From Deltaproteobacteria bacterium (GTDB lineage: Bacteria > Desulfobacterota > Syntrophia > Syntrophales > JAAYKM01): a stretch of DNA of 34,545 nt. Position 1 is the first letter of the stretch; every line of letters begins with the position of its first letter. Below the pieces are notes generated by a model that saw nothing but the letters and a program-made list of their open reading frames with translations, was not told the DNA's origin and did no database searches. Where the stretch lies: NCBI GenBank assembly GCA_012522415.1, contig JAAYKM010000137.1, forward strand, positions 1-34,545, read 5' to 3'. Of this stretch, positions 1,220 through 17,100 are shown in pieces. A program made the position numbers and the translations under genes.

Positions 1220-1256
1220 AAGGGGGGTTGTCGGGTGGGACAGCCCCCCTTTTTTT
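1220..1256 (+). terminator. Strong intrinsic terminator facing plus
   Basis: A 13-bp stem (1220-1232 with 1239-1251, one G-U pair) with loop GGGTGG is followed by a T run to 1256. Only the plus orientation has the U tract, although the hairpin also touches the stop codon of the minus-strand molybdoenzyme at 1255-1257. No convincing plus-strand gene precedes it between 1007 and 1219, so either it ends a small untranslated transcript or the hairpin also protects the 3' end of the minus-strand mRNA. Confidence 0.8.
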
Positions 1257-3327
1257 AGATTTTTTTGATCCGGCAGGCAAAATTGCGCATCAGGGCCGGA
1301 TAACCCGTTACGGGATCGTTCGGCTGGTTTTTTGCCAGGACATTTCCATTGTGCGTTCCCTCCCAGCCGTGGGCGATACCGATCACACCGGGCTTTATGT
1401 CTTCGGTTAGAAACGCTTTCAGCCGAATTGACTTGTCGGGTGTTTCTACATATACTTCTTCTCCGTCAGTAATGCCAAGGGATGCGGCGTCCTGGGGATG
1501 CACCTCCACTCGGGGATTCGGTTCCATCCGCCTGAGTTCCTGAATGCTCCTGAATTGCCAGCCGACATAATAAGGACTTCTCATGCCCGTAACGGCGGTT
1601 AGAGGATAGTTTCGTGTCAGGTCGGGGCAAACCGAAGAATCCTGAGGGCTTGCTACATAGGTTGGCAACGGTTCGTAGCCGGCATCTTGCAAGGTTGCGG
1701 AATAGAGTTCGATTTTCCCGGAAGGCGTTCGAATCTTGCCGGTCATGCTATGAGCCCGTTCACCGAACCACATGCCTGAAGGATGTTCTTCTTCCAGTTG
1801 CCTGCGCGTGATACCGCTTGGCTGCAGCAACAAATCCACCATCTCTTCGTCCGTTTGCCAGGGGAAATATTCATCATAACCCATCCGACGTCCGAGTTCG
1901 GCGAAATACTTCCAGTCCGGCCAGCATTCACCGGGAGGATCTATGATCCTGCGGTTCAGGAGGCAATACGGCATTCCTCCGGTTAGCCCATAATTCATGG
2001 CCACGCCGAGGCGCTCGGGATTGGCCGAGGCTGGGAGAACGAAATGGGCGAGCTTTGCCGTTTGTGTCATGAAAAGATCCATAACGACGAGGAGGTCCAA
2101 CTTTGCCATAGCCTGGGTAAAGAGGTCTGAATCGGGCCAGGCGGCGACCATGTTGCTGCCATGAACCAGCATGGCCCTGACGGGATAAGGATTTTCATTG
2201 AGGATGGCTTCCGGCAGGTCCATTTGCCGGCCATAGGGCGATGTCATGCCCCAGAACCCATGGAAAATCGGATAATTCTTGCAGCCGATAGGGACCTGCC
2301 CTTTATAGCCATCGACAAGCCTCAAGTCGGGCATCCGCATGAAGGGATTCTGGCACCAGCCTCCGGGTTTGTTGATGTTGCCCGTGATGGCTTGGAGAAT
2401 AGCCATGGCGCGATTGGTCTGGAATCCGTTGATATGCTGATCCAGAGAACAGATCCCCGCTTCGATGCAGGTGCTTTTCGCACAGGCGAAAATACGGCTG
2501 ATATGGCAGATATCTTCCGCCGCGACCTCACAGATCTCGGCGGCCCATTCCGGTGTGCAAGAAGCCACGTGGGCGCTCAATTTTTCAAAACCGGTTGTAT
2601 AATGATCTATAAAATCCATGTCATAAAGCCGTTCCCGAATGATGACATGGATCATGGCCAGGGCCAGGGCCGCATCCGTACCGGGCTTGATCTGAAGATA
2701 CAGACCCTTCCTTGCCAGGGGGACACGTTTGGGATCAATGACAACAAGCCGTAGCCCCCTGTCCAGGAGTTTGTTGATCCGGGCGGACAGAGGCGGTTCC
2801 GTTGCATCCGGGTTATGCCCCCAGAGGATGATGCATTCGGTATTGTCCGGATCGGAAAGCGGATACATGCCGAAGGTCATCTGCCGGGCCATGATACGGG
2901 ATCGGAAACAGTGTGCCTCGATAGAGAAAAAATTAGGCGTGCCGAATGCGCCCCGCCACCGCTGGGCGAAAGCTGAGATCTGAAAATCTTCTGCTCCCTT
3001 GGACCCGATGGAAAGGCCTACCGCCCGAGCGCCGTGTTCTGCCTTGATGGCCTGCAGTCTTGTCGCAATTTCATCCAGCGCTTCGCTCCAGCTTATCCGG
3101 TCAAATCCCCCGGCGCTGTTTCTTCGCAGGGGATATTTGAGACGGTCCGGGGCGTAAACATATTCAGGAAGCCGGTAGCCCCGGTGACAGAGAACGCCCC
3201 GGCTGAACGGGTGTTCCTTCATCCCCTCCACCTTAACGAGCTTTCCGTCCCTGACATGTGCATCGATCCCGCATACCTGAAAACATAACATACAGACTGT
3301 TTTATAGATTTCCATACCTTCACCCAT
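1255..3327 (-). CDS. Molybdopterin (bis-MGD) oxidoreductase, formate dehydrogenase/thiosulfate reductase-like
   Basis: A 690-residue catalytic subunit of the DMSO reductase superfamily. The N-terminus has a [4Fe-4S] motif, Cys12-x2-Cys15-x3-Cys19-x27-Cys47, followed by RGYRLPEYVYAPDRL, where the cofactor domains begin. The segment EAHCFRSR (about residues 137-144) puts a Cys where the Mo/W ligand is expected, as in formate dehydrogenase and polysulfide reductase types. The C-terminal end fits a molybdopterin dinucleotide-binding domain (GHEW-like segment GWEGTHNGNV). There is no twin-arginine signal, so it should be cytoplasmic. The start at 3327 has GGAGG eight bases upstream and overlaps the upstream gene by 8 nt, indicating translational coupling. 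The substrate is unknown; the OYE-GltD partner suggests flavin-linked electron exchange (inference). Confidence 0.85.
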   Translation of the reverse strand: MGEGMEIYKTVCMLCFQVCGIDAHVRDGKLVKVEGMKEHPFSRGVLCHRGYRLPEYVYAPDRLKYPLRRNSAGGFDRISWSEALDEIATRLQAIKAEHGARAVGLSIGSKGAEDFQISAFAQRWRGAFGTPNFFSIEAHCFRSRIMARQMTFGMYPLSDPDNTECIILWGHNPDATEPPLSARINKLLDRGLRLVVIDPKRVPLARKGLYLQIKPGTDAALALAMIHVIIRERLYDMDFIDHYTTGFEKLSAHVASCTPEWAAEICEVAAEDICHISRIFACAKSTCIEAGICSLDQHINGFQTNRAMAILQAITGNINKPGGWCQNPFMRMPDLRLVDGYKGQVPIGCKNYPIFHGFWGMTSPYGRQMDLPEAILNENPYPVRAMLVHGSNMVAAWPDSDLFTQAMAKLDLLVVMDLFMTQTAKLAHFVLPASANPERLGVAMNYGLTGGMPYCLLNRRIIDPPGECWPDWKYFAELGRRMGYDEYFPWQTDEEMVDLLLQPSGITRRQLEEEHPSGMWFGERAHSMTGKIRTPSGKIELYSATLQDAGYEPLPTYVASPQDSSVCPDLTRNYPLTAVTGMRSPYYVGWQFRSIQELRRMEPNPRVEVHPQDAASLGITDGEEVYVETPDKSIRLKAFLTEDIKPGVIGIAHGWEGTHNGNVLAKNQPNDPVTGYPALMRNFACRIKKI

Positions 3328-5944
3328 CGTTTTGACCTCCCTGATTACATGACGATTTCGAGGATCCTTCTTTTCTGGGAAACAAACCGCACTGCAGGCA
3401 CCGGTCGGCCTCCATCAGTGCTTCCCGTTCTCCCAGGCTCGCTTCCACTTCTGGGAACCCAACCAGACGCTTAGATACGGGAAGGGTCCTGGGAGACACC
3501 CGCCGACGTTTTTTGAAATGATTCATGTCGATCGATTCCCAACCGATGGTCGGTGCTTCGCCAGCTCCCGGAGCCGGAGGCGGTTCTTCGCTGAGATGGC
3601 TGTGAATGGCAAATGCGGCCCGGCGGCCGTCCGCCAAGGCTTCTATGACGGAGGCCGGTCCTCGGACCAGATCGCCTCCGGCAAAAACACCCTCGATTTC
3701 CGTGGCAAGCGTTTGTGAATTCACTGCCAGAGGTTGGTCCGACGGCAAAACCTGGAAATCTGAAGCCAAGGGCGACAGATCAGGCCGCTGCCCGACGGCG
3801 ACGATGGCCATGCCCGCCTGGACAAAAAATTCTGACCCGGAAAGCGTCACCGGTTGTGGGCGGCCGCTTTTATCGGGAGCCCCTGGCTCCGCTTTCAGGC
3901 ATTCAATGCCCATTATTTTCCCATTTTTCGATATAAATCGCTTGGGTATTGCCCTGCAGATGAACTTTACCCCTTCCCTTTCCGCTTCTGCAACTTCTTC
4001 CGCTATGGCCGGCATGTCTTCTCTTGAACGGCGGTAAAGCACCGTAACCGATTTCACCCCCAGGCGGAGGGCGCTGCGGGCCGCATCGATGGCGGTATTG
4101 CCGCCACCGATCACCGCGATAGGGTCTTCGACAAGGGCCGACTTGCCGAGATTGATGTCTTTCAACCAGGATAAGCCGTCCACAATGCCTGCCATATCGG
4201 CCCCCTCGATTTCCAGGGGGATACTTTCCTGTGCCCCCATAGCAAGGAAAACAGCGTTGTATCCCTGATTGAACAGGTCATTTATGGAAAGCCCGGCTCC
4301 TCCGATCGGCTGGTTCAGTTTGATTTCGAATCCATAGTGCTGCAGATAGGCGATCTCCCGGCGTAGGATTTCACGGGGCAGACGGTACGCCGGGATACCC
4401 CAGGCGAGCATGCCTCCAGGCACTTCACCCGCTTCGAACACGGTGACGCCGTATCCAAGGCGGGACAGATAAAAGGCGGCGCTGAGTCCGGCCGGCCCGG
4501 CACCGGCAACCGCCACCCGCTGAGGCTTGGCGGGCCTGACTTTTTCAGCAGGCGGTTCCGATCTGTCTCGTCGCCCATCGGCGACAAATCGTTTCAGAAC
4601 GTTGATGGCCACAGGGGCGCCATCAAAATGGTTGCGATTGCACGCTTTTTCGCAGAAGCGGGGACAGACGCGACCGATGACCATGGGAAGCGGAACCTTG
4701 TTGTGAATCAGGTCAAGGGCCTGTTCGTAATGACCCTGGACGATGCAGTCCATGTATCCGCGGATATCCACATGCGCAGGGCAGGCGTCCTGGCAGGGAG
4801 GGACCAGGAGCCACGGCGAAGGAGCGTTGAGAAGTCCTTCAGGCCACTGGATGCAAGTTACCGGTTCATAGCGTTCATCGGCCTCGCTGCAAAAACCGCA
4901 GGCTGCACACATTACAATGGTGTCTTCACGATTCTCCCTGGCTTTAACGGGCCAGTCGGGATCACACAGGAGGGTGCGGGCCATGCCGATGATATCAGCC
5001 CGTTCTTGGTTTAGAATTGACTCCGCCAGGTCCGGCCTGCGAATTTTTCCGGCTGTGACAACCGGGATGCCATACCCTGCCTGTCGCAATGTCCTTCGAA
5101 TGCCCTCGGCCAGATAAACTTGGGGTCCATCAGGATGCCACCACCGGGGGCTCATGCGGTGTCCGCTGTATCCGGTTCCGGCAAACGGCGGGAAGCCCTC
5201 AGGGGGGGGTGGTGCGTCTTCAAACCGTTCTCCCGCTGAAACACTGATGTAATCAACCCCTTCGTTCGCCAGCCGAAGAGCCACCCGGGTGCTCTGTGAG
5301 AGGGTGTTCCCTTCCAGGGTAAATTCCTCGCCGTTTATTCGTATTCCGACGGGGTAATCTGCCACGGCCTCCCTTACGGCGAGCACCACGTCGGAGGGTA
5401 GCCTGATGCGTCCCTCGAAATCTCCTCCGTAATCATCGGGGCGTTTGTTTCCCAAGGAAAGAAAGGAAGCCAGGGTGGTAAAGTGAGCCATGTGAATTTC
5501 AACGAAATCAAAATCCGCATTCTTTGCCCTCCACGCCCCTCCGGCAAACTGTTGCGGGATGCCTGCGATTTCTTCAGGTGTCAGGTCTTGTACTTTCTGA
5601 CGCCAGCCGCTGCGGGAGAGCTTAAGAAAATGCATGATCTGTAGACCGATCTTTATGTCCGGGTTGACCTCACGGATGGATGCAACAAAGGATTTCAACT
5701 CGTCCACAAGCCGGTCATCACTGACGCGAAAATTAAAGGAGCTCCGCGAGGGGAGCACCACGGCGGCTTCCACCACCATCGCCCCCAGTCCGCCCGCGGC
5801 CATCCTTTGGTATCGTGCTGTGACCTGTGGGGTCACATGGCCGTCCTCTGAGGCCAGGCGCGTGACGGCTGCCGTCGACATGATCCGGTTTGTCAGTTGA
5901 CAATTCCTTATTCTAATGGGGGTAAACAAGTTTGGATACTTCAA
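3320..5944 (-). CDS. Old yellow enzyme fused to GltD-like Fe-S/FAD/NAD(P) reductase
   Basis: An 874-residue fusion. Residues 1 to about 340 form an OYE-type FMN barrel (start MKYPNLFTPIRI; HMAHFTTLASFL, then NKRPDDYGG). Four cysteines, Cys346-x2-Cys349-x2-Cys352-x11-Cys364, follow, like the [4Fe-4S] site of 2,4-dienoyl-CoA and enoate reductases but one residue shorter in the third gap. From about 384 a GltD/NfnB-type module begins: CQDACPAH, then VCPRFCEKAC, GAGPAG near 481-486 for FAD, and GGGNTAIDAA for NAD(P)H. It ends with RCLQCGLF. The likely job is NAD(P)H-driven reduction of an activated double bond; the substrate is unknown. I moved the start from the longer ORF (TTG at 5986) to TTG 5944, which has GGAGG at 5951-5955 and gives a typical OYE N-terminus. 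Confidence 0.88.
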   Translation of the reverse strand: MKYPNLFTPIRIRNCQLTNRIMSTAAVTRLASEDGHVTPQVTARYQRMAAGGLGAMVVEAAVVLPSRSSFNFRVSDDRLVDELKSFVASIREVNPDIKIGLQIMHFLKLSRSGWRQKVQDLTPEEIAGIPQQFAGGAWRAKNADFDFVEIHMAHFTTLASFLSLGNKRPDDYGGDFEGRIRLPSDVVLAVREAVADYPVGIRINGEEFTLEGNTLSQSTRVALRLANEGVDYISVSAGERFEDAPPPPEGFPPFAGTGYSGHRMSPRWWHPDGPQVYLAEGIRRTLRQAGYGIPVVTAGKIRRPDLAESILNQERADIIGMARTLLCDPDWPVKARENREDTIVMCAACGFCSEADERYEPVTCIQWPEGLLNAPSPWLLVPPCQDACPAHVDIRGYMDCIVQGHYEQALDLIHNKVPLPMVIGRVCPRFCEKACNRNHFDGAPVAINVLKRFVADGRRDRSEPPAEKVRPAKPQRVAVAGAGPAGLSAAFYLSRLGYGVTVFEAGEVPGGMLAWGIPAYRLPREILRREIAYLQHYGFEIKLNQPIGGAGLSINDLFNQGYNAVFLAMGAQESIPLEIEGADMAGIVDGLSWLKDINLGKSALVEDPIAVIGGGNTAIDAARSALRLGVKSVTVLYRRSREDMPAIAEEVAEAEREGVKFICRAIPKRFISKNGKIMGIECLKAEPGAPDKSGRPQPVTLSGSEFFVQAGMAIVAVGQRPDLSPLASDFQVLPSDQPLAVNSQTLATEIEGVFAGGDLVRGPASVIEALADGRRAAFAIHSHLSEEPPPAPGAGEAPTIGWESIDMNHFKKRRRVSPRTLPVSKRLVGFPEVEASLGEREALMEADRCLQCGLFPRKEGSSKSSCNQGGQNDG

Positions 5945-6016
5945 GGAAAACCTCCAGATAGCGCTATCAATATCGTTTTCCGTCAAGGGACACGGATATG
6001 GTTAGCCTGTTAATAA

Positions 6017-6168: not shown

Positions 6169-6198
6169 TTGACTTTTTGCGGGGGCCTTCAGTATATT
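6169..6198 (+). promoter_or_regulatory. Sigma-70 promoter of the marR gene
   Basis: TTGACT (6169-6174), an 18-nt spacer and TATATT (6193-6198). It places the transcript start after the TTG at 6197 and so rules that codon out as the MarR start. Confidence 0.55.
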
Positions 6199-6229
6199 GA
6201 TCAGGGCAAAACGAATTATCCCAATTGAG

Positions 6230-6694
6230 ATGGCTATGGCAAAATCAGATTATAAAAACGATGCCAGTCCAAATGAAAAATTGATGCTGACGATTGTCCG
6301 GCTCTCGGAACAATACAAGAAAGACTGTTCCTTGATATTCAGCCGTTACGGATTGACTTTTCCTCAGTATAACGTGCTTCGGATTCTGGATGGTTCTGAA
6401 AATAAAAGGAATACCATCTCGCGGGTGGGTAAGTTGATGCTCGTTTCGGGTGCCAATATGACCGGCATCGCCAAAAGACTGGAACGGGACGGCTTTCTTG
6501 TCCGTAGGGGTGTTCCGGAAGATGCGAGAATTGCGTTTCTGGAGATCACCACGAAAGGAAAACAAACCCTGGCAACCATTGCCACCCATCGTGATGCCCT
6601 GATCGATCATTATCTTTCCGATTATGATGAGGAAACCAGACAGAGACTTCGATCCATCTTACGTGATTGCCTGAGAAAAGTGACAGACAGGTGA
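6230..6694 (+). CDS. MarR-family transcriptional regulator
   Basis: 154 residues, the usual MarR length. The winged helix is visible as FPQYNVLRIL, then an HTH region around ISRVGKLMLVSGANMTGIAKRL and the wing with the acidic DAR motif (GVPEDARIAFLEIT), followed by a C-terminal dimerisation helix. Such proteins bind palindromes as dimers and are released by small, often phenolic or acyl, ligands. The gene is divergent from the OYE-GltD/molybdoenzyme operon, whose promoter holds a palindrome, so that operon is the likely target and its substrate or product a possible ligand (inference). The start ATG 6230 is chosen because the longer TTG start falls in the promoter -10; ATG 6236 is also possible. 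No strong ribosome binding site is visible. Confidence 0.9.
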   Translation: MAMAKSDYKNDASPNEKLMLTIVRLSEQYKKDCSLIFSRYGLTFPQYNVLRILDGSENKRNTISRVGKLMLVSGANMTGIAKRLERDGFLVRRGVPEDARIAFLEITTKGKQTLATIATHRDALIDHYLSDYDEETRQRLRSILRDCLRKVTDR

Positions 6695-8944: not shown

Positions 8945-9232
8945 AAGGAGGTGTTCGAGCGGCAAGAAAAATCGGATTTCCAAGAAGGCAGGCAGGTCAA
9001 GGGGATGCGCGGGAAGACCGCTCGAAACGTTACCGGGACAGAGGGTTCAGTCAATCATCGTTGTCCTTCAGATTTTTTCTAGATCTTGCTCCGGTTCTAG
9101 TATTCCATCCGGGCAGCCCGGGTGCCCTCAATCCCGCGCCTGAGAAAGCAGGAAATTTGCCGTGGGTTCGGTTGAATCACGGGCTAGATGGCGGGCAAAA
9201 AAAATCTTGCAATCGGTCGTTGTCTTTAGTAC

Positions 9233-9250
9233 GTTTCTGCACGCAGAAAC
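9233..9250 (+). promoter_or_regulatory. Inverted repeat abutting the trpR ribosome binding site
   Basis: GTTTCTGC-AC-GCAGAAAC is a perfect inverted repeat that ends at the base before AGGAGG (9251-9256). As DNA it could be an autoregulatory TrpR operator; as RNA it forms a 7-bp stem with a CACG loop against the ribosome binding site. AGGAGG to the trpR ATG is 13 nt, longer than usual. Confidence 0.4.
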
Positions 9251-9269
9251 AGGAGGCTGGTTAAGTCAT

Positions 9270-9545
9270 ATGGAGACAAAAGATGAATGGATCAGAGTTT
9301 TTGCAGAAATAACGGATGTTGGGGAAATGAATGCTTTTTTGCATGAAATGTTTACACCCAAAGAAATGATGGATATTCGGTTGCGCTGGCAACTGTTGAA
9401 GGAATTGCACGAAGGCGAAACCCAGAGAAGTATAGCCTCAAGGCATCGGATGAGTCTTTGTAAAATCACCCGGGGAGCCAAACTTTTAAAGGCGAAAAAC
9501 TCTCTGGTAAAGAAAATTCTTGATAATATGAAGGAGCTTTCATGA
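9270..9545 (+). CDS. trpR: Trp repressor-family protein
   Basis: 91 residues, slightly shorter than E. coli TrpR (108). The all-helical core [20 protein letters not shown] matches the TrpR dimer core, and the helix-turn-helix follows as [10 protein letters not shown] with the recognition segment [13 protein letters not shown], which parallels the ITRGSNSLKA end of TrpR. In the known family tryptophan is the corepressor and trp genes are targets. Here the TGA stop overlaps the trpB start (ATGA), so repressor and TrpB are translated together, as in the trpRBA operon of Chlamydia but without trpA. The start ATG 9270 is the only good one in frame. A YerC-like relative remains possible. Confidence 0.8.
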
Positions 9546-10765
9546 GTTTAATGGCACAGGATATTAAAATGCCCGATGAGGAGGGACGTTTCGGAGAATA
9601 CGGCGGGCGGTATGTTCCCCCTCAGTTGGATGCGGTACTGGAGGAAATCACTTCTGCCTACAATGCAATCAAAGACGATCCGGGATTCAAGGAGGAACTT
9701 TACGCTCTCTATAAGGATTATGTTGGGCGCCCGAGTCCCATTACGTACGCACAGAATTTATCGGATAAGATCGGCGGAGCCCGACTCTATCTTAAACGGG
9801 AGGACCTGAACCATACGGGTGCCCACAAGATCAACCATTGTCTTGGCGAAGTGCTGCTGGCCAAGAAGATGGGCAAGAAAAAGGTCATCGCAGAAACCGG
9901 GGCGGGGCAGCACGGTGTGGCTTTGGCGACAGCCGCAACCCTGCTTGGCCTCGAATGCGATATCTATATGGGTGAAGTGGACATCGTTAAGGAAAAGCCG
10001 AATGTTGTTCGGATGAAAATTCTTGGAGCCAATCTCATCCCCGTAACCAAGGGGCAACGGACTCTCAAAGAAGCCGTGGATGATGCATTCGATGCGTATC
10101 TGAAAGATCCCGTAACGCAACTATACGCGATCGGGTCTGTAGTGGGTCCCCATCCCTTTCCCATGATGGTACGGGATTTTCAGGAGATTGTGGGCATGGA
10201 AGCGCGAGAACAGTTTCAGGAAAAGACCGGAACCCTGCCGGATAACCTGGTGGCTTGCGTGGGTGGCGGCTCCAATGCGATGGGCCTGTTCACTGCATTT
10301 CTCCAAGACGAAAATGTGAACATTTATGGCGTGGAGCCGTCGGGGGTGGGGCTGCAGCAAGGGCAGCATGCGGCGACTCTTACCATGGGAACCCCTGGTA
10401 TTCTGCACGGATTCAAGTCTTATTTGCTCCAGGACACGAAAGGTGATCCCCTGAGTGTCTACTCCGTGGCAAGCGGTCTCGATTATCCGGGTGTAGGCCC
10501 TCAGCACAGTTTGCTCAAGGATATCGGTCGGGTCAATTATGTTACGGCAGACGACCGGGAGACTATTGACGCTTTTTTTGAACTGTCCCGGACTGAAGGT
10601 ATCATACCGGCTCTGGAAAGCGCCCACGGCGTTGCCTATGCAATGAAACTGGCCAAAGAACTGCCCCGTAACAAAACCATTTTGGTCAACCTGTCCGGGC
10701 GGGGTGACAAGGATATCGACTTTGTGGTGGCGAAATATGGCAAGAATTATGGGATTGTAATATAA
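9542..10765 (+). CDS. trpB: Tryptophan synthase beta chain
   Basis: 407 residues, normal TrpB length. It joins indole and serine to make tryptophan using [11 protein letters not shown] at 91-98 contains the PLP lysine (Lys96), [10 protein letters not shown] has the catalytic glutamate, GGGSNA is the phosphate-binding loop and NLSGRGDKD lies near the C-terminus. These are canonical TrpB1 motifs, including the part that contacts TrpA. The ATG overlaps the trpR stop by 4 nt. No trpA follows, so either trpA is elsewhere or this copy works alone, for example salvaging indole (inference). No clean terminator follows. Confidence 0.95.
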
Positions 10766-11201: not shown

Positions 11202-13220
11202 ATGAGGAAGCAACATCCGATCGGAAAAGGTGACCCGCAAAAAATTCCATCGCAGCAAAGCCGTTTCCCCTTGGTGACGACATGGGGAGGAAGATTTATC
11301 GACCGGCGTATCAAAAACGCCCCAACCATGGCAGACAATTTCCCGGGCAAATTAGAGGAGCTTCCGTTTAAGGGGATTATGACTTGGAACGGAATTGTTG
11401 TGCGCCACGAAGATGCGGATATCCCCTCCCTGACCTATGCTTATCTGCGAGAAGCAAGGAAAATATCCTGTGGTGAATGTTCCGTATGCATGATCGGCCT
11501 CGATCGGGTTATCGGGATATTTCGCAAATTCATCGAGGGCACCGGGACCATACAGGATCTGAAGGAGATCGAGGAAATCGCCTACCAGGTATCCGTCAAC
11601 GGGAAGTGCTATTTCGGCCGTTCGGCAGCCCTTGTTCCGGTAGCGGACGCCATTAAACATTTCCGCCAAGATTTTCTGGCTCTGATAACGGGGAAGCGGG
11701 TGCTGATCAATCGTGGATATGAGTTCGCTGTTACAGCTCCCTGCATTGAGGCGTGTCCGGCGAGTCTGCCGATTACCGCATATATTGAAAAAATAAAAAA
11801 CTTCCAGTTTCGAGAATCTCTTGAATTGATCCGTTTACAATGCATCCTGCCCGGTGTTATCGGGCGAACCTGTACACATCCCTGTGAAACGGCCTGTATT
11901 CGACAGAAAATAGACGAATCGCTCTCGATCCGCCTTCTTAAAAGGGCCGCTGCGGATGAGGATCTGAAAGAAGGCGCTTCATCCCTGCCGCTACCCCGCA
12001 AGGAAAAACCAGAAAAAGTCTGTATTATCGGGGCGGGACCGGCCGGGTTGGCGGCCGCCTACCACCTGCGGCTTTTCGGATACGGGGTTACGATCTTTGA
12101 GGGCCTTTCCGCCATGGGAGGAATGGCCGCGGTCGGTATTCCGGATTACCGGCTGCCCAAGGAAGTGCTGTTCCATGAGACGAACTTGATTAAACGCATG
12201 GGAGTGGACGTTTTCTTGAATCGTGGCGTGGATGTTCTGAAATGGGATGACCTGAAAAAACAAGGGTTCAAGGCTCTCTTCCTTTCAGTTGGTGCACACC
12301 GAGGGGGAGACATGGGCCTCGCTGGAGAAAATGATCTGGTCGATGGCTTTGAACAAGGTATTGATTTTCTCAGGAAAGTGCAGGAGCGTTGTTCCGACAT
12401 CAAACCGGTACGGAAAGTGTTCATTCTCGGAGGGGGAAATGTTGCCATAGACTGCGCCCGAAGCTGTCTCCGTCTTGGATTTTCCCATGTGGAAATTCTC
12501 TATCGCCGTTCCCGCAAGGAAATGCCGGCATTACCGGAGGAAATTGACGAAGCCTTGAAAGAGGGGGTTAAGATTCGCTATCTCACGGCGCCGCTCAGAG
12601 TCAAGAGCAAATGGGGACGGCTCGAAGGCTTGGAATGTGTGAAGATGAAGTTGGGTGATCCTGACCACACGGGAAGGCGTAAACCCGTTCCGGTGGCGGG
12701 CTCCAGTTTCACCTTAAAGGCCGACAAGGTTATTGCCGCCACGGGTCAGGAAGTCGATACGTCCTTCTTAACGGAAAAAGACAGAGAGAAATTGCTCAGA
12801 GGAAATAAAGTCTGGGCAGATCCGCTTACCTGCCAGACGGACCTGGAAGGTGTCTTTGCCGGGGGTGATTGTGTAACAGGGCCGGCGACTCTCATTGAAG
12901 CGCTTGGCATGGGGAATCGTGCCGCCAGAAGTATCGATGCCTACCTCCAGGGCAAACCGTACAGCCCTCAAAATTTTTTCGCCGGAATCGATACATCCTT
13001 GCAGCGTAATGACGGATTTCTTCCAACGAAACAGGCCGTCCGGGTTAGACTGCTGCCCGAGTCCCGGCGGATGGGTGATTTTATTGAGGTGGAAGCCGGT
13101 TTTACGCGAAACGAAGCCATGGAGGAGGCGCGGCGCTGTCTGCGATGTTATCGCCTTATGGTCTGGGAAGTCGATAAACCAAAAGAGGAGCAGCCAAAGG
13201 GGAGGGGAAGGGGAACATGA
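11202..13220 (+). CDS. NuoF-type cluster domain fused to GltD/NfnB-like flavoprotein
   Basis: 672 residues (ATG start). Residues about 55-140 carry the NuoF C-terminal [4Fe-4S] site, Cys90-x2-Cys93-x2-Cys96-x39-Cys136, in the context ISCGECSVCMIG. The NuoF FMN/NADH Rossmann part is absent. From about 180 a GltD/NfnB-type module begins: TAPCIEACPAS, TCTHPCETAC, then GAGPAG near 277-282 for FAD, MPALPEEIDEA, a second nucleotide site GGGNVAIDCARS, and GVFAGGDCVTGPATLIEA for FAD. It ends with RRCLRCYRL. The likely role is electron transfer between NAD(P)H and ferredoxin-type carriers with the next gene, which it overlaps (ATGA). The start ATG 11202 has AAGGTG six bases upstream; GTG 11193 is the alternative. 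Confidence 0.85.
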   Translation: MRKQHPIGKGDPQKIPSQQSRFPLVTTWGGRFIDRRIKNAPTMADNFPGKLEELPFKGIMTWNGIVVRHEDADIPSLTYAYLREARKISCGECSVCMIGLDRVIGIFRKFIEGTGTIQDLKEIEEIAYQVSVNGKCYFGRSAALVPVADAIKHFRQDFLALITGKRVLINRGYEFAVTAPCIEACPASLPITAYIEKIKNFQFRESLELIRLQCILPGVIGRTCTHPCETACIRQKIDESLSIRLLKRAAADEDLKEGASSLPLPRKEKPEKVCIIGAGPAGLAAAYHLRLFGYGVTIFEGLSAMGGMAAVGIPDYRLPKEVLFHETNLIKRMGVDVFLNRGVDVLKWDDLKKQGFKALFLSVGAHRGGDMGLAGENDLVDGFEQGIDFLRKVQERCSDIKPVRKVFILGGGNVAIDCARSCLRLGFSHVEILYRRSRKEMPALPEEIDEALKEGVKIRYLTAPLRVKSKWGRLEGLECVKMKLGDPDHTGRRKPVPVAGSSFTLKADKVIAATGQEVDTSFLTEKDREKLLRGNKVWADPLTCQTDLEGVFAGGDCVTGPATLIEALGMGNRAARSIDAYLQGKPYSPQNFFAGIDTSLQRNDGFLPTKQAVRVRLLPESRRMGDFIEVEAGFTRNEAMEEARRCLRCYRLMVWEVDKPKEEQPKGRGRGT

Positions 13221-13990
13221 TTCGTATCCATATCGATGATCAAACCGTGGAAACGAAGGGGGGAGGGAGCATCCTGACCGAAGCCGGCAAGCTCCACATC
13301 CGAATCCCCACTCTTTGCTATCATGAAAGCCTTTCCCCCTTCGGGGCTTGTCGCCTCTGTGTCGTGGAAGTCAAACAGGGGAGGAGATGGGACTTGACGA
13401 CTTCCTGCAATACGGAAATTGTACAGGATATGATCGTGAGGACCGATTCACCTGAAATTCGTCGCAGCCGCAAAGCCGCGGCCGAACTGCTTTACTATAA
13501 GTATCCCCGTACCAGGGCGATTCGGGATATTGCGGAAAGGCTGGGCGTCAGGGTCACGCAAACGAAGGAGGATGCACGGGAGTGTATTCTCTGCGGCCTG
13601 TGCGTGCGTGCATGCCAGGAGATCGTGGGAGTGAATGCCCTTCGTTTCGAGGACCGGGGGCCGGACCATCCTGGAGAACCGCCCAGGATAGGCTATCTGG
13701 GGGATTCCTGTATTTGCTGTGGTGCATGCGCCTTTATCTGTCCGACGGGTTATATCCGGATGGAACCGGTTGGGGCGGATCGGCGGATGATCTGGGAGAG
13801 GGTTTTTGAAATGGGGGCTTGCCGGGTGTGCGGAAAGAAGTTCGCCCCGTTGGCGCAATTGGAATACCTGAGCCGCCGGTCCGATATACCGCTTGCCCAG
13901 GTGATGACATGCATTACGTGCCGGGAAGCGGGAATCCCTGCAAGCGTTGTGGACGAAAAGGACTGGGTCTCCATGCACCAACACAGGTAG
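13217..13990 (+). CDS. NuoG/HydA-like ferredoxin subunit: [2Fe-2S] plus two [4Fe-4S]
   Basis: 257 residues. The N-terminal plant-type ferredoxin fold has Cys34-x10-Cys45-x2-Cys48-x15-Cys64 for [2Fe-2S]. The His/Cys cluster that normally follows in NuoG is missing: the corresponding stretch (about 90-115) has no Cys. Two bacterial-ferredoxin motifs follow, Cys123-x2-Cys126-x2-Cys129-x3-Cys133 and Cys165-x2-Cys168-x2-Cys171-x3-Cys175-Pro. The C-terminus adds CxxC pairs at 202/205 and 232/235, like a zinc or rubredoxin-type knuckle. There is no catalytic domain, so it passes electrons between the preceding flavoprotein and an enzyme encoded elsewhere (inference). The 4-nt overlap indicates a co-translated pair. 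Confidence 0.85.
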   Translation: MIRIHIDDQTVETKGGGSILTEAGKLHIRIPTLCYHESLSPFGACRLCVVEVKQGRRWDLTTSCNTEIVQDMIVRTDSPEIRRSRKAAAELLYYKYPRTRAIRDIAERLGVRVTQTKEDARECILCGLCVRACQEIVGVNALRFEDRGPDHPGEPPRIGYLGDSCICCGACAFICPTGYIRMEPVGADRRMIWERVFEMGACRVCGKKFAPLAQLEYLSRRSDIPLAQVMTCITCREAGIPASVVDEKDWVSMHQHR

Positions 13991-13993
13991 GCA

Positions 13994-15367
13994 TTACATA
14001 AATCCGTATTTTTTGAGCTTCTGATGAAGGGTCCGTCGGGTGATGCCCAGTCGCCGGGCGGCCTCGCTCTTGTTTCCCTTGACAAGATCCAGGGTTTTCA
14101 GAATAGTTTCTTTTTCCACTTCCTCCAGGGAGGTGGTGCCGATCGAGGTAAAGCCAGCCCCTGATGCGTCAGGGTCAACCGTCGGGGTTAAAGGGGATAC
14201 GCCATGGATCAGAGGCATATTCTCGGTATCAAGATAATCCGTTCGTGTCAGGACCACCCCTCTTTCAACGACATTCATCAATTCCCGTACATTGCCTGGC
14301 CAGTCGTATTTGAGGAGGTGATCCATTGCGCTGGGAGTGAAGCCCTTGATATTTTTCCGGTTTTTTTCGACAAACTGACTTAGGAAATGATGCGCCAGCA
14401 ACGGAATATCTTCCCGACGGTCCCGCAACGGTGGAAGGGTCAGTGATACGACGTTCAAGCGGTAATATAGATCTTCCCGAAAACGATTTTCGCGGATTTC
14501 CTGAAACAAATCTCTATTCGTAGCCGTAACAAGCCGGACATCCACTTTGATGACCAGATCGCCTCCAACGGGTGTGATTTCCCTTTCCTGGAGCACCCTT
14601 AGGAGCTTGGCTTGCATACCGGGAGACATTTCGCTGACCTCGTCAAGGAAAAGGGTCCCGTGGTCCGCCAGACGGAATTTCCCTTCTCGCTTGCGGTCCG
14701 CTCCCGTGAATGACCCCTTTTCATGGCCAAACAGCTCTGATTCCAGAAGCGTTTCCGTGATCGCGGCGCAGTTGATCCGAATGAAGGGGCCTTCCTTTCT
14801 CGGACTGTTGAAATGGATTGCTGAGGCAATGACTTCTTTTCCTGTACCCGATTCTCCCGTTATGAGTACAGTGGCGTCTGACCCGGCGATATGGACAACG
14901 GTGTCCAAAAGCGAGGTCATGGCAGCACTTCGGCCGATAATATCGCGGCGGTCAAAGCGATTCGAAAGGCTTTCCTTCAAAATCCGGTTTTCTTTCCTGA
15001 GGTGCGCGTGATCCATGGCCCTCTGCATCGCAATTTTCAACTCATCGAAGTCCAGGGGTTTGGTAAGGTAATCGTAGGCACCACTTTTCAGGGCATCTAC
15101 AGCGGTTTCCACAGAAGCAAACGCGGTCATGATGATGACGGGGATGGCGGGATTATAGGCTTTGATCTCATTGAGTGCTTCGAGGCCGGAAACGCCGGCC
15201 ATGCGGATGTCCATGAGGATCAGATCGAATGCCTGCTGGTGTGCCTGGTCGATGGCCTCACTGCCGTCGGAGGCTTCGGTGATATCGTATCCCCATCCTG
15301 ATAGCAGGGCCCGCAACATGGTTCGGTGTGCTCGGTCATCGTCGCAAATTAAGACGGTATTTTTCAT
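13994..15367 (-). CDS. Sigma-54-dependent response regulator, NtrC/ZraR type
   Basis: 457 residues in the usual three domains. The receiver has phospho-acceptor Asp53 (LILMDIRM) and Lys104. The AAA+ domain has Walker A GESGTGKE at 171-178, the sigma-54 contact loop GSFTGA at 218-223 (Ser instead of the more common Ala) and Walker B LFLDEVSEM. A Fis-type HTH ends the protein (NKSEAARRLGITRRTLHQKL). When phosphorylated it should open sigma-54 promoters. The start overlaps the end of the kinase gene by 4 nt, so the two form an operon read from 17100. A sigma-54-like promoter exists in the window at 26106, but nothing ties this regulator to it. Confidence 0.93.
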   Translation of the reverse strand: MKNTVLICDDDRAHRTMLRALLSGWGYDITEASDGSEAIDQAHQQAFDLILMDIRMAGVSGLEALNEIKAYNPAIPVIIMTAFASVETAVDALKSGAYDYLTKPLDFDELKIAMQRAMDHAHLRKENRILKESLSNRFDRRDIIGRSAAMTSLLDTVVHIAGSDATVLITGESGTGKEVIASAIHFNSPRKEGPFIRINCAAITETLLESELFGHEKGSFTGADRKREGKFRLADHGTLFLDEVSEMSPGMQAKLLRVLQEREITPVGGDLVIKVDVRLVTATNRDLFQEIRENRFREDLYYRLNVVSLTLPPLRDRREDIPLLAHHFLSQFVEKNRKNIKGFTPSAMDHLLKYDWPGNVRELMNVVERGVVLTRTDYLDTENMPLIHGVSPLTPTVDPDASGAGFTSIGTTSLEEVEKETILKTLDLVKGNKSEAARRLGITRRTLHQKLKKYGFM

Positions 15368-17100
15368 GAATCCTTTCCTTTCCGTTTGCTTGTCTGGAAC
15401 GCTTCCTCCGCTGGAAGCAGAATGGTTACGGAGGTGCCTTCTTCCTCTTCGCTCCTGATGTGGACATGCCCATTGTGGGCCTCAACAATGCGATGAACGA
15501 TTGCGAGGCCCAGTCCTGTTCCGGAAGATTTCGTAGTAAAATAGGGGTCATAGACATGGGGAAGATCTTGTCGATGAATGCCCCGGCCGGTATCCGATAC
15601 GGTGATTTCTCTCATGGTGTCCGTGGGCTGGGACAATGAAACCGTCAGAAGTCCACCCGGCTCCATGGCATCAAAAGCGTTCAGGTAAAGATTAAGCAAG
15701 ACTTGGGAGATCCTGTCGTCATCGATCCAGGCGAACAATTTCTCCTCCGGCAAATTTCTTTCAATGTGAATGCCTTTTTCTGCGGCTTGGGGCCCCACCA
15801 TCCTCAGTGAGTGCCCAATCAGTCCCCGTAATTCCGTATCCCGCCTTTTCATCGTCAAGGGGCGTGCAAAATCAAGCAGTTGCCCAATGACCCGGTTAAG
15901 CCGTTCCACTTCCCCGATGAGCACCTCCGCGATTTCACCGTCCTCCGGAGTATCCTTGTATTTTTCACGGAAATAGGTGGCGAAGCCCTTTATGGAACTC
16001 AAAGGATTTCGTATTTCATGAGCGATGCCCGCCGCAAGGCTGCCCAGTGATGCCAGCCGCTGAGTCTGGGCCATTTCTTTCCTCAAAAGAATCATTTCGG
16101 TCATGTCCCGGAAGAGCAAGAGATATCCGATAAACGCGCCCTTTTCTTCCGACAGCCTGGTGACGACCATATCGAGGGATATGGTTTTGCCGGATCCAAG
16201 GGGATATTCAATTTCCGTTTCCTGTGCCGGGGCGGCGTGATCCGACCCCGTAATGAGTTCTTGCCAGGACGGTGGCAATCGGTCCATCAACGGCTTGCCC
16301 AGCATCTCCTTCATCTGCAATCCCAGCAGTGCCTCCCCCGCCGGGTTCATTGTGGTTAGTTTTTTCCGGGCATCAAGCAAGACCAAGCCAATGGGCATCT
16401 TGTCGATAATCGTATCGGAGAGGATGGTCATTCTTGACAGGGAGGATTCCGAAGATCGGTAAGCTTGGGCAAGAATCAGGGAGATGATACCTGAACAGCC
16501 GATCAAGAAAAAGATGATTCCCATCCAGATGGTGTGTCGCATGTCAGCCGTTTTCGTGAGTGAGAGGGGACCGGTATCGAGACCGATAAAGAGGATCAGA
16601 GGTGGTTTTATTTGACCAATGATTGCATCGCCGCCGAGGTCGATTTTTACGGTCGGCAGGGATTTGTACACTTCGAAGGTGTCCGCTCCGTCGGAACGGA
16701 CAAACTGGCGCCAACCCGGATCAAGATCCGCGGCGATTTTCTCCAGTGATAGGTTCATGTCGTATTGATCACCGATAACCGTTGGGTCACTGTCGGCAAT
16801 GATCGTACCCGATCTGTCCGTGATAACCACGTAATCGATGTCGGCGTGCCGCGATGTCTCCATCAAGAATTTCTGCAGGAGAAAAGCGTTCCATGGCTGC
16901 CCCGGCCCCGTCCGTATAGCGGCTTCGAAAGACCTGATCATGGCAAAACCCTTCTCACGCAGCAGTTCCGTTATCGAGGCTTGTTGACGTTGGACCCCCC
17001 GGATGGTCATAATCGTTAAGATAGGGATCAGTATAGCCAGGGTGCCGAGTATCACCCAGGGGGATACGTTGAACCAGAAAGGGTGGAGCGTTTTCTTCAT
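15364..17100 (-). CDS. PAS-containing sensor histidine kinase, ZraS/AtoS type
   Basis: 578 residues. Transmembrane segments lie near 13-34 and 190-212, enclosing a sensor loop of about 155 residues likely to lie in the periplasm. A PAS domain follows (about 225-335; IIDKMPIGLVLLDARKK), then HisKA with phospho-acceptor His361 in GIAHEIRNPLSS, and a HATPase with N box LLNLYLNAFDAM, G1 DTGRGI and G2 GTGLGLAI. It phosphorylates the regulator encoded immediately downstream. The sensor loop shows no His/Cys cluster, so zinc sensing as in ZraS is not supported, and the signal is unknown. It is transcribed toward the NuoG-like module, converging with it. Confidence 0.93.
   Translation of the reverse strand: MKKTLHPFWFNVSPWVILGTLAILIPILTIMTIRGVQRQQASITELLREKGFAMIRSFEAAIRTGPGQPWNAFLLQKFLMETSRHADIDYVVITDRSGTIIADSDPTVIGDQYDMNLSLEKIAADLDPGWRQFVRSDGADTFEVYKSLPTVKIDLGGDAIIGQIKPPLILFIGLDTGPLSLTKTADMRHTIWMGIIFFLIGCSGIISLILAQAYRSSESSLSRMTILSDTIIDKMPIGLVLLDARKKLTTMNPAGEALLGLQMKEMLGKPLMDRLPPSWQELITGSDHAAPAQETEIEYPLGSGKTISLDMVVTRLSEEKGAFIGYLLLFRDMTEMILLRKEMAQTQRLASLGSLAAGIAHEIRNPLSSIKGFATYFREKYKDTPEDGEIAEVLIGEVERLNRVIGQLLDFARPLTMKRRDTELRGLIGHSLRMVGPQAAEKGIHIERNLPEEKLFAWIDDDRISQVLLNLYLNAFDAMEPGGLLTVSLSQPTDTMREITVSDTGRGIHRQDLPHVYDPYFTTKSSGTGLGLAIVHRIVEAHNGHVHIRSEEEEGTSVTILLPAEEAFQTSKRKGKDS

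Follow-up and report, generated by a model that had tools for sequence, protein, structure and literature searches.

The window, that is, the whole 34,545-nucleotide stretch of DNA analysed here, contains two adjoining genes on the plus strand, hereafter designated F (11202–13220) and G (13217–13990). F encodes a chimera of the C-terminal part of NuoF and GltD, and G a short iron-sulfur subunit of 257 residues that resembles NuoG and type 2 BfuA. The frame of F is open from GTG 11193, from which its residues are numbered throughout, and ATG 11202, preceded by AAGGTG, appears to be the more plausible start. Domain searches revealed, from the N-terminus onward, a NuoF-type [4Fe-4S] region (PF10589; residues 84–163, E 1.6e-15; 11442–11681) with C93, C96, C99, and C139, a two-cluster Fer4_20 domain (residues 181–260, E 8e-20; 11733–11972) containing Lys250, and a GltD-type double Rossmann unit for FAD and NAD(P)(H) with the NADP-type motifs GxGxxA and YRR (Pyr_redox_2; residues 275–574, E 6.6e-27; 12015–12914), all on the plus strand, to which an alignment of homologues adds a CxxC motif (C649 and C652; 13137–13148, same strand) at the C-terminus. 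The Complex1_51K/FMN domain (PF01512) was not found in the domain search, so that PF10589 is the only NuoF part, and F indeed combines, as the earlier note had read from the letters, the C-terminal [4Fe-4S] motif of NuoF with a GltD-type module and no NADH/FMN domain. The cysteines of F (C93-x2-C96-x2-C99...C139, C184/C188, C227/C231/C235, and C649/C652) are common to the two orphan F proteins described below and to 33 homologues linked to pyruvate:ferredoxin oxidoreductase (POR). An AlphaFold model of F was weak (pLDDT 64.6), with the NuoF-like part barely tested in fold matches; given this weak model, the fold matches of F may serve only to back up the sequence matches.

G shows a Fer2_4 match (residues 1–78, E 1.1e-13), with the [2Fe-2S] ligands C34/C45/C48/C64 (13316–13408), and a Fer4_7 match (residues 123–178, E 1.2e-6) over two [4Fe-4S] sites, C123/126/129/133 and C165/168/171/175 (13583–13741), all on the plus strand. 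These ligands were invariant in the 25 sequences aligned, and neither a His/Cys cluster motif nor a catalytic domain was detected in these sequences or by domain search, in agreement with the cluster content proposed earlier for G. What the earlier note had missed is a further invariant set, C202xxC205...C232xxC235, which makes up a C-terminal CxxC...CxxC ribbon (13820–13921, plus strand) and is also present in G′, a paralogue of G, and in chain A of PDB 9mqx, an electron-bifurcating tungsten aldehyde oxidoreductase. This BfuA-like chain of 247 residues is the best match of G in both sequence and fold, ribbon included (Z 21.2, 3.0 Å over 225 residues), although it is paired there with a complete NuoF (chain B, 622 residues) and the catalytic unit is the tungsten enzyme. 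Thus, in cluster content (A1 [2Fe-2S] and A2 and A4 [4Fe-4S], without A3 and A5) and in its fold match to 9mqx_A, G corresponds to type 2 BfuA.

The stop codon of F and the start codon of G overlap in ATGA (13217–13220, plus strand), by which translation of the two is likely coupled. Compared with a sister species of the same genus (G006), F is 69% identical (pN 0.19/pS 0.75, with saturated synonymous sites) and G 71% identical (pN 0.17/pS 0.56); both genes are evidently under purifying selection, which is not a chance effect. With a GltD-type FAD/NAD(P) unit in F and clusters in G, these data support the reading of F and G as a module for electron transfer with NAD(P)H. Genes for a sigma-54 response regulator and a histidine kinase (13994–17100, minus strand) converge with the pair, and the same neighbours are present in G006 (L067). 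Sigma-54 control of the pair by these adjacent genes was considered and rejected, matches to −24/−12 elements not being in excess. No convincing promoter or terminator was found at F–G, a search for RNA elements found none, and a search for plasmid carriage gave no match.

Catalytic partner of F–G homologues in Syntrophales

Homologues of F were collected by a GTDB genome scan with an alignment of the F junction region and two search patterns, using L082 as the query. Among the matches listed, 37 loci were at least 60% identical to the query and the next ones about 40%, and all of the 37 are from metagenome-assembled genomes of Syntrophales or kin labelled Deltaproteobacteria and similar. Among these listed matches (L086–L122), porB lies directly upstream of F in 36 of the 37 Syntrophales loci, and in the remaining one (L098) the contig starts at F. 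Upstream of porB there follow, contig permitting, porA, porD, and porC, and often the fumarase alpha/beta genes, recR, and dnaX. F is likewise found behind porCDAB in the Syntrophales order genome set, which overlaps with the loci of the scan. The best NCBIfam matches of the por genes were the pyruvate synthase PorA/B/C/D models; PorA–D also match NCBIfam Pad models. The survey of neighbours proposed in the earlier note thus yields, among the matches listed, POR as the shared catalytic partner, and not a hydrogenase or formate dehydrogenase constantly flanking such pairs. That note had also described the pair as lacking its terminal enzyme, which holds for the window genus only and fails in the relatives, with porCDAB directly before F. 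Hydrogenase and formate dehydrogenase were rejected as the partner, being found only beside more distant chimeras (about 37–46%), as was complex I, the heads of which form a clade separate from the POR-linked F, the only G-like matches in the window genome being those in the window, in the por operon, and on C140 and C51.

In other Syntrophales, the same slot behind dnaX–recR–(fumAB)–porCDAB is occupied by NuoE–NuoF–G′, where G′ is about 40% identical to G. With head types assigned by identity band, F-type G was present in 42 and NuoF-type G in 75 of 155 Syntrophales genomes, and both occurred together in only two of the 115 genomes with either, namely, the window genome and G129. The G129 bin has 8% contamination, and its F-type G (L062, G129:C5), nearly identical to that of G112, likely represents contamination or recent transfer. 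G and G′ separate on the G tree along with their heads; counted over well-supported branches only, a minimum of 4 switches of head type is needed on the PorB tree and a minimum of 6 on the PorA+B+C tree. Because the head type switches repeatedly on the POR tree while the heads form separate clades, the heads are, judging from these trees, exchanged as two interchangeable cassettes behind one POR lineage. Binning does not explain these swaps, since each locus has its por genes and its head together on a single contig. PMC9304861 raises the question of why low-potential enzymes such as POR should bifurcate in the first place, and Syntrophales may be regarded as a natural experiment in this respect, in which the same POR has a probably bifurcating head in some species and a presumably simple NADP(H) head in others, with repeated swaps.

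Role of the orphan pair in the window genus

No por gene lies near F–G in either the window or G006, and in this genus F does not directly follow porCDAB. The window genome has one PorB of the porCDAB-head family, on contig C57, together with a NuoE–NuoF–G′ head; other enzymes with a POR_N domain are on C47 and C5. No PorB was found in G006, a genome 72% complete. Because the orphan F (window and G006) nests inside the POR-linked F clade with support of 98/97, a POR head is the most likely ancestor of the orphan pair. The orphan G also falls in the F-linked clade (100/98), with weak finer nesting (86/90) on the G tree.

In F, the GxGxxG motif for FAD, the GxGxxA motif of the second Rossmann fold, and YRR are invariant, as in GltD-type heads linked to NADP(H), and GxGxxA, YRR, and Lys250 are retained in all 35 of the orphan and POR-linked F proteins. 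Judging by GxGxxA and YRR, F presumably uses NADP(H) rather than NAD. We consider it fairly probable that F–G is an NADP(H)-linked head of POR that does not bifurcate and has become detached from porCDAB in the window genus. By homology, electrons would be exchanged between NADP(H) and FAD in the GltD unit, and then, within F, between FAD, the two Fer4_20 clusters, and the NuoF-type [4Fe-4S] cluster, which would communicate through the [2Fe-2S] and two [4Fe-4S] clusters of G with the clusters of PorD and the thiamine site of PorAB. The part of NuoF that remains in F has probably been retained as a docking and electron-transfer face towards G. Such a head would couple pyruvate/acetyl-CoA and CO2 directly to NADP(H), without bifurcation, and the orphan pair would still dock in trans on the single POR of this family (C57) in the genome. 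More tentatively, the same POR could be run in the window genus with either a bifurcating NADH/ferredoxin Bfu head or the non-bifurcating NADP(H) F–G head, the two being exchangeable in trans. If this is true, one enzyme could change its energy coupling by swapping heads in trans. A genus with both heads makes head exchange directly testable. With POR as the partner in relatives, a GltD–NuoF protein that would otherwise be taken for an orphan flavoprotein is placed in a catalytic context.

It is rather unlikely, though the most serious of the alternatives, that the detached pair has a new catalytic partner, or by itself serves as an oxidoreductase between NADPH and ferredoxin or another acceptor. 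The por genes are not nearby, the por slot is occupied by NuoE–NuoF–G′, and related F-like heads elsewhere serve complex I, formate dehydrogenase, and hydrogenase. Moreover, the branch of the orphan F is long (0.63), and otherwise conserved positions are changed in both orphans (14 of 216 in F and 9 of 82 in G), on account of which the partner may have changed. However, there is no conserved catalytic neighbour, only the convergent two-component pair being common to the window and G006, and 93% of the conserved positions in F, together with every cluster ligand, have been kept.

The suggestion of the earlier note that the pair is Nfn-like or bifurcating is not supported, and a flavin-based electron-bifurcating unit of the Nfn or Bfu type now seems improbable. 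F does have the GltD/NfnB fold and aligns with the large subunits of StnC and NfnABC (in sequence, and as a fold match on the weak model), and G is similar to BfuA of bifurcating enzymes. However, F has no FMN domain of the kind found in BfuB, no NuoE/BfuC occurs beside F–G in the window or in the POR-linked F loci, and these two, as BfuBC, make up the defining bifurcation core of Bfu enzymes (PMC9304861); being without this core, the F–G head should not bifurcate. An NfnA partner (PyrK-like, with FAD and [2Fe-2S]) is also absent beside F, the partner gene encoding the NuoG-like G. Furthermore, Lys250, invariant in the two orphans and 33 POR-linked F proteins, aligns with K170 of StnC, the lysine at the FAD-proximal cluster, whereas the residue there in P. 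furiosus NfnB is a glutamate, and the FAD of StnC with this lysine is reported to be non-bifurcating (PMC10482914). A lysine at this position is common in most GltD heads examined and so is not specific; Lys250 argues against an NfnB-type site and alone is no proof against bifurcation.

Least probable of all is that F–G lies on a misbinned contig or is what remains, in decay, of a head displaced by NuoE–NuoF–G′. The rarity of genomes with both heads (the second case, G129, looking like contamination) would suit this reading, but both frames are intact and under purifying selection, with all ligands kept in two species; G006, a genome of the same genus, has F–G beside the same two-component genes (response regulator and histidine kinase); and the composition of the window contig matches that of the por contig (tetranucleotide r 0.97).

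Comparison with known systems

A POR with a bifurcating head is already known as a published hypothesis, namely, the Por-Bfu arrangement with type 2 BfuA proposed by Schut et al. 2022 (PMC9304861), and the C57 operon of the window genome with NuoE–NuoF–G′ has this arrangement. Por-Bfu and F–G have in common a four-subunit POR core and a short iron-sulfur subunit of the BfuA kind, which holds clusters A1, A2, and A4, whereas F–G lacks BfuB (FMN) and BfuC (NuoE), a single GltD–NuoF chimera replacing both. The large subunits of StnC and NfnABC (PDB 8oh5, 9bov, and 9n5u) resemble F–G in leading from a GltD-type FAD/NADPH unit through Fer4_20 clusters to NuoG-type clusters, and resemble F in the lysine ligand next to FAD. 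Their GltD unit, however, forms one chain with NuoG and supplies a bifurcating core containing FMN, whereas that of F is joined to a NuoF remnant, with the NuoG-like subunit as a protein of its own and no such core. NuoF–GltD heads with the domain order of F, about 650 or about 1030 residues long and roughly 37–46% identical, are found in complex I, formate dehydrogenase, and FeFe-hydrogenase clusters; the POR-linked F differs from them in its partner and forms its own clade. Since GltD–NuoF chimeras also head these clusters, the chimera is best regarded as a reusable plug.

Other 2-oxoacid oxidoreductases have a direct NAD(P) link through an added flavoprotein, including phenylglyoxylate:NAD+ oxidoreductase (PadEFGHI) and 2-oxoglutarate:NADP+ oxidoreductase, both from Azoarcus, and the pyruvate:NADP+ oxidoreductase of Euglena. 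To our knowledge, none of these uses a NuoF–GltD chimera with a NuoG-like subunit. Neither a published POR with a GltD–NuoF head nor a repeated head swap was found in the literature searched, which left most subscription papers outside.

Several other arrangements were observed. In Desulfobacterota, GltD–NuoF chimeras of about 650 residues replace NuoE/NuoF within complex I operons (L251–L258, L261, L262, L266, and L267), and four of these loci (L258, L262, L266, and L267) have a formate-dehydrogenase-like gene inside the nuo operon. At L066 (G000:C140), genes for NuoE, a 1018-residue NuoF–GltD chimera, and FeFe-hydrogenase-like (596 residues), NuoG-like (377 residues), and FDH-like (544 residues) proteins are clustered, and the genes for a 587-residue NuoF-like and a 1160-residue StnC-like protein at L004 and L006 (G000:C51) probably encode an Stn/Nfn-Bfu transhydrogenase. 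Elsewhere in the window, a gene with a Trp-repressor domain lies directly 5′ of, and overlaps, a stand-alone trpB (9162–10765), and an Old-yellow-enzyme/GltD fusion (888 residues) adjoins a molybdopterin oxidoreductase (690 residues) on the minus strand (1255–5986), with a MarR-type regulator gene (6197–6694) beside them.
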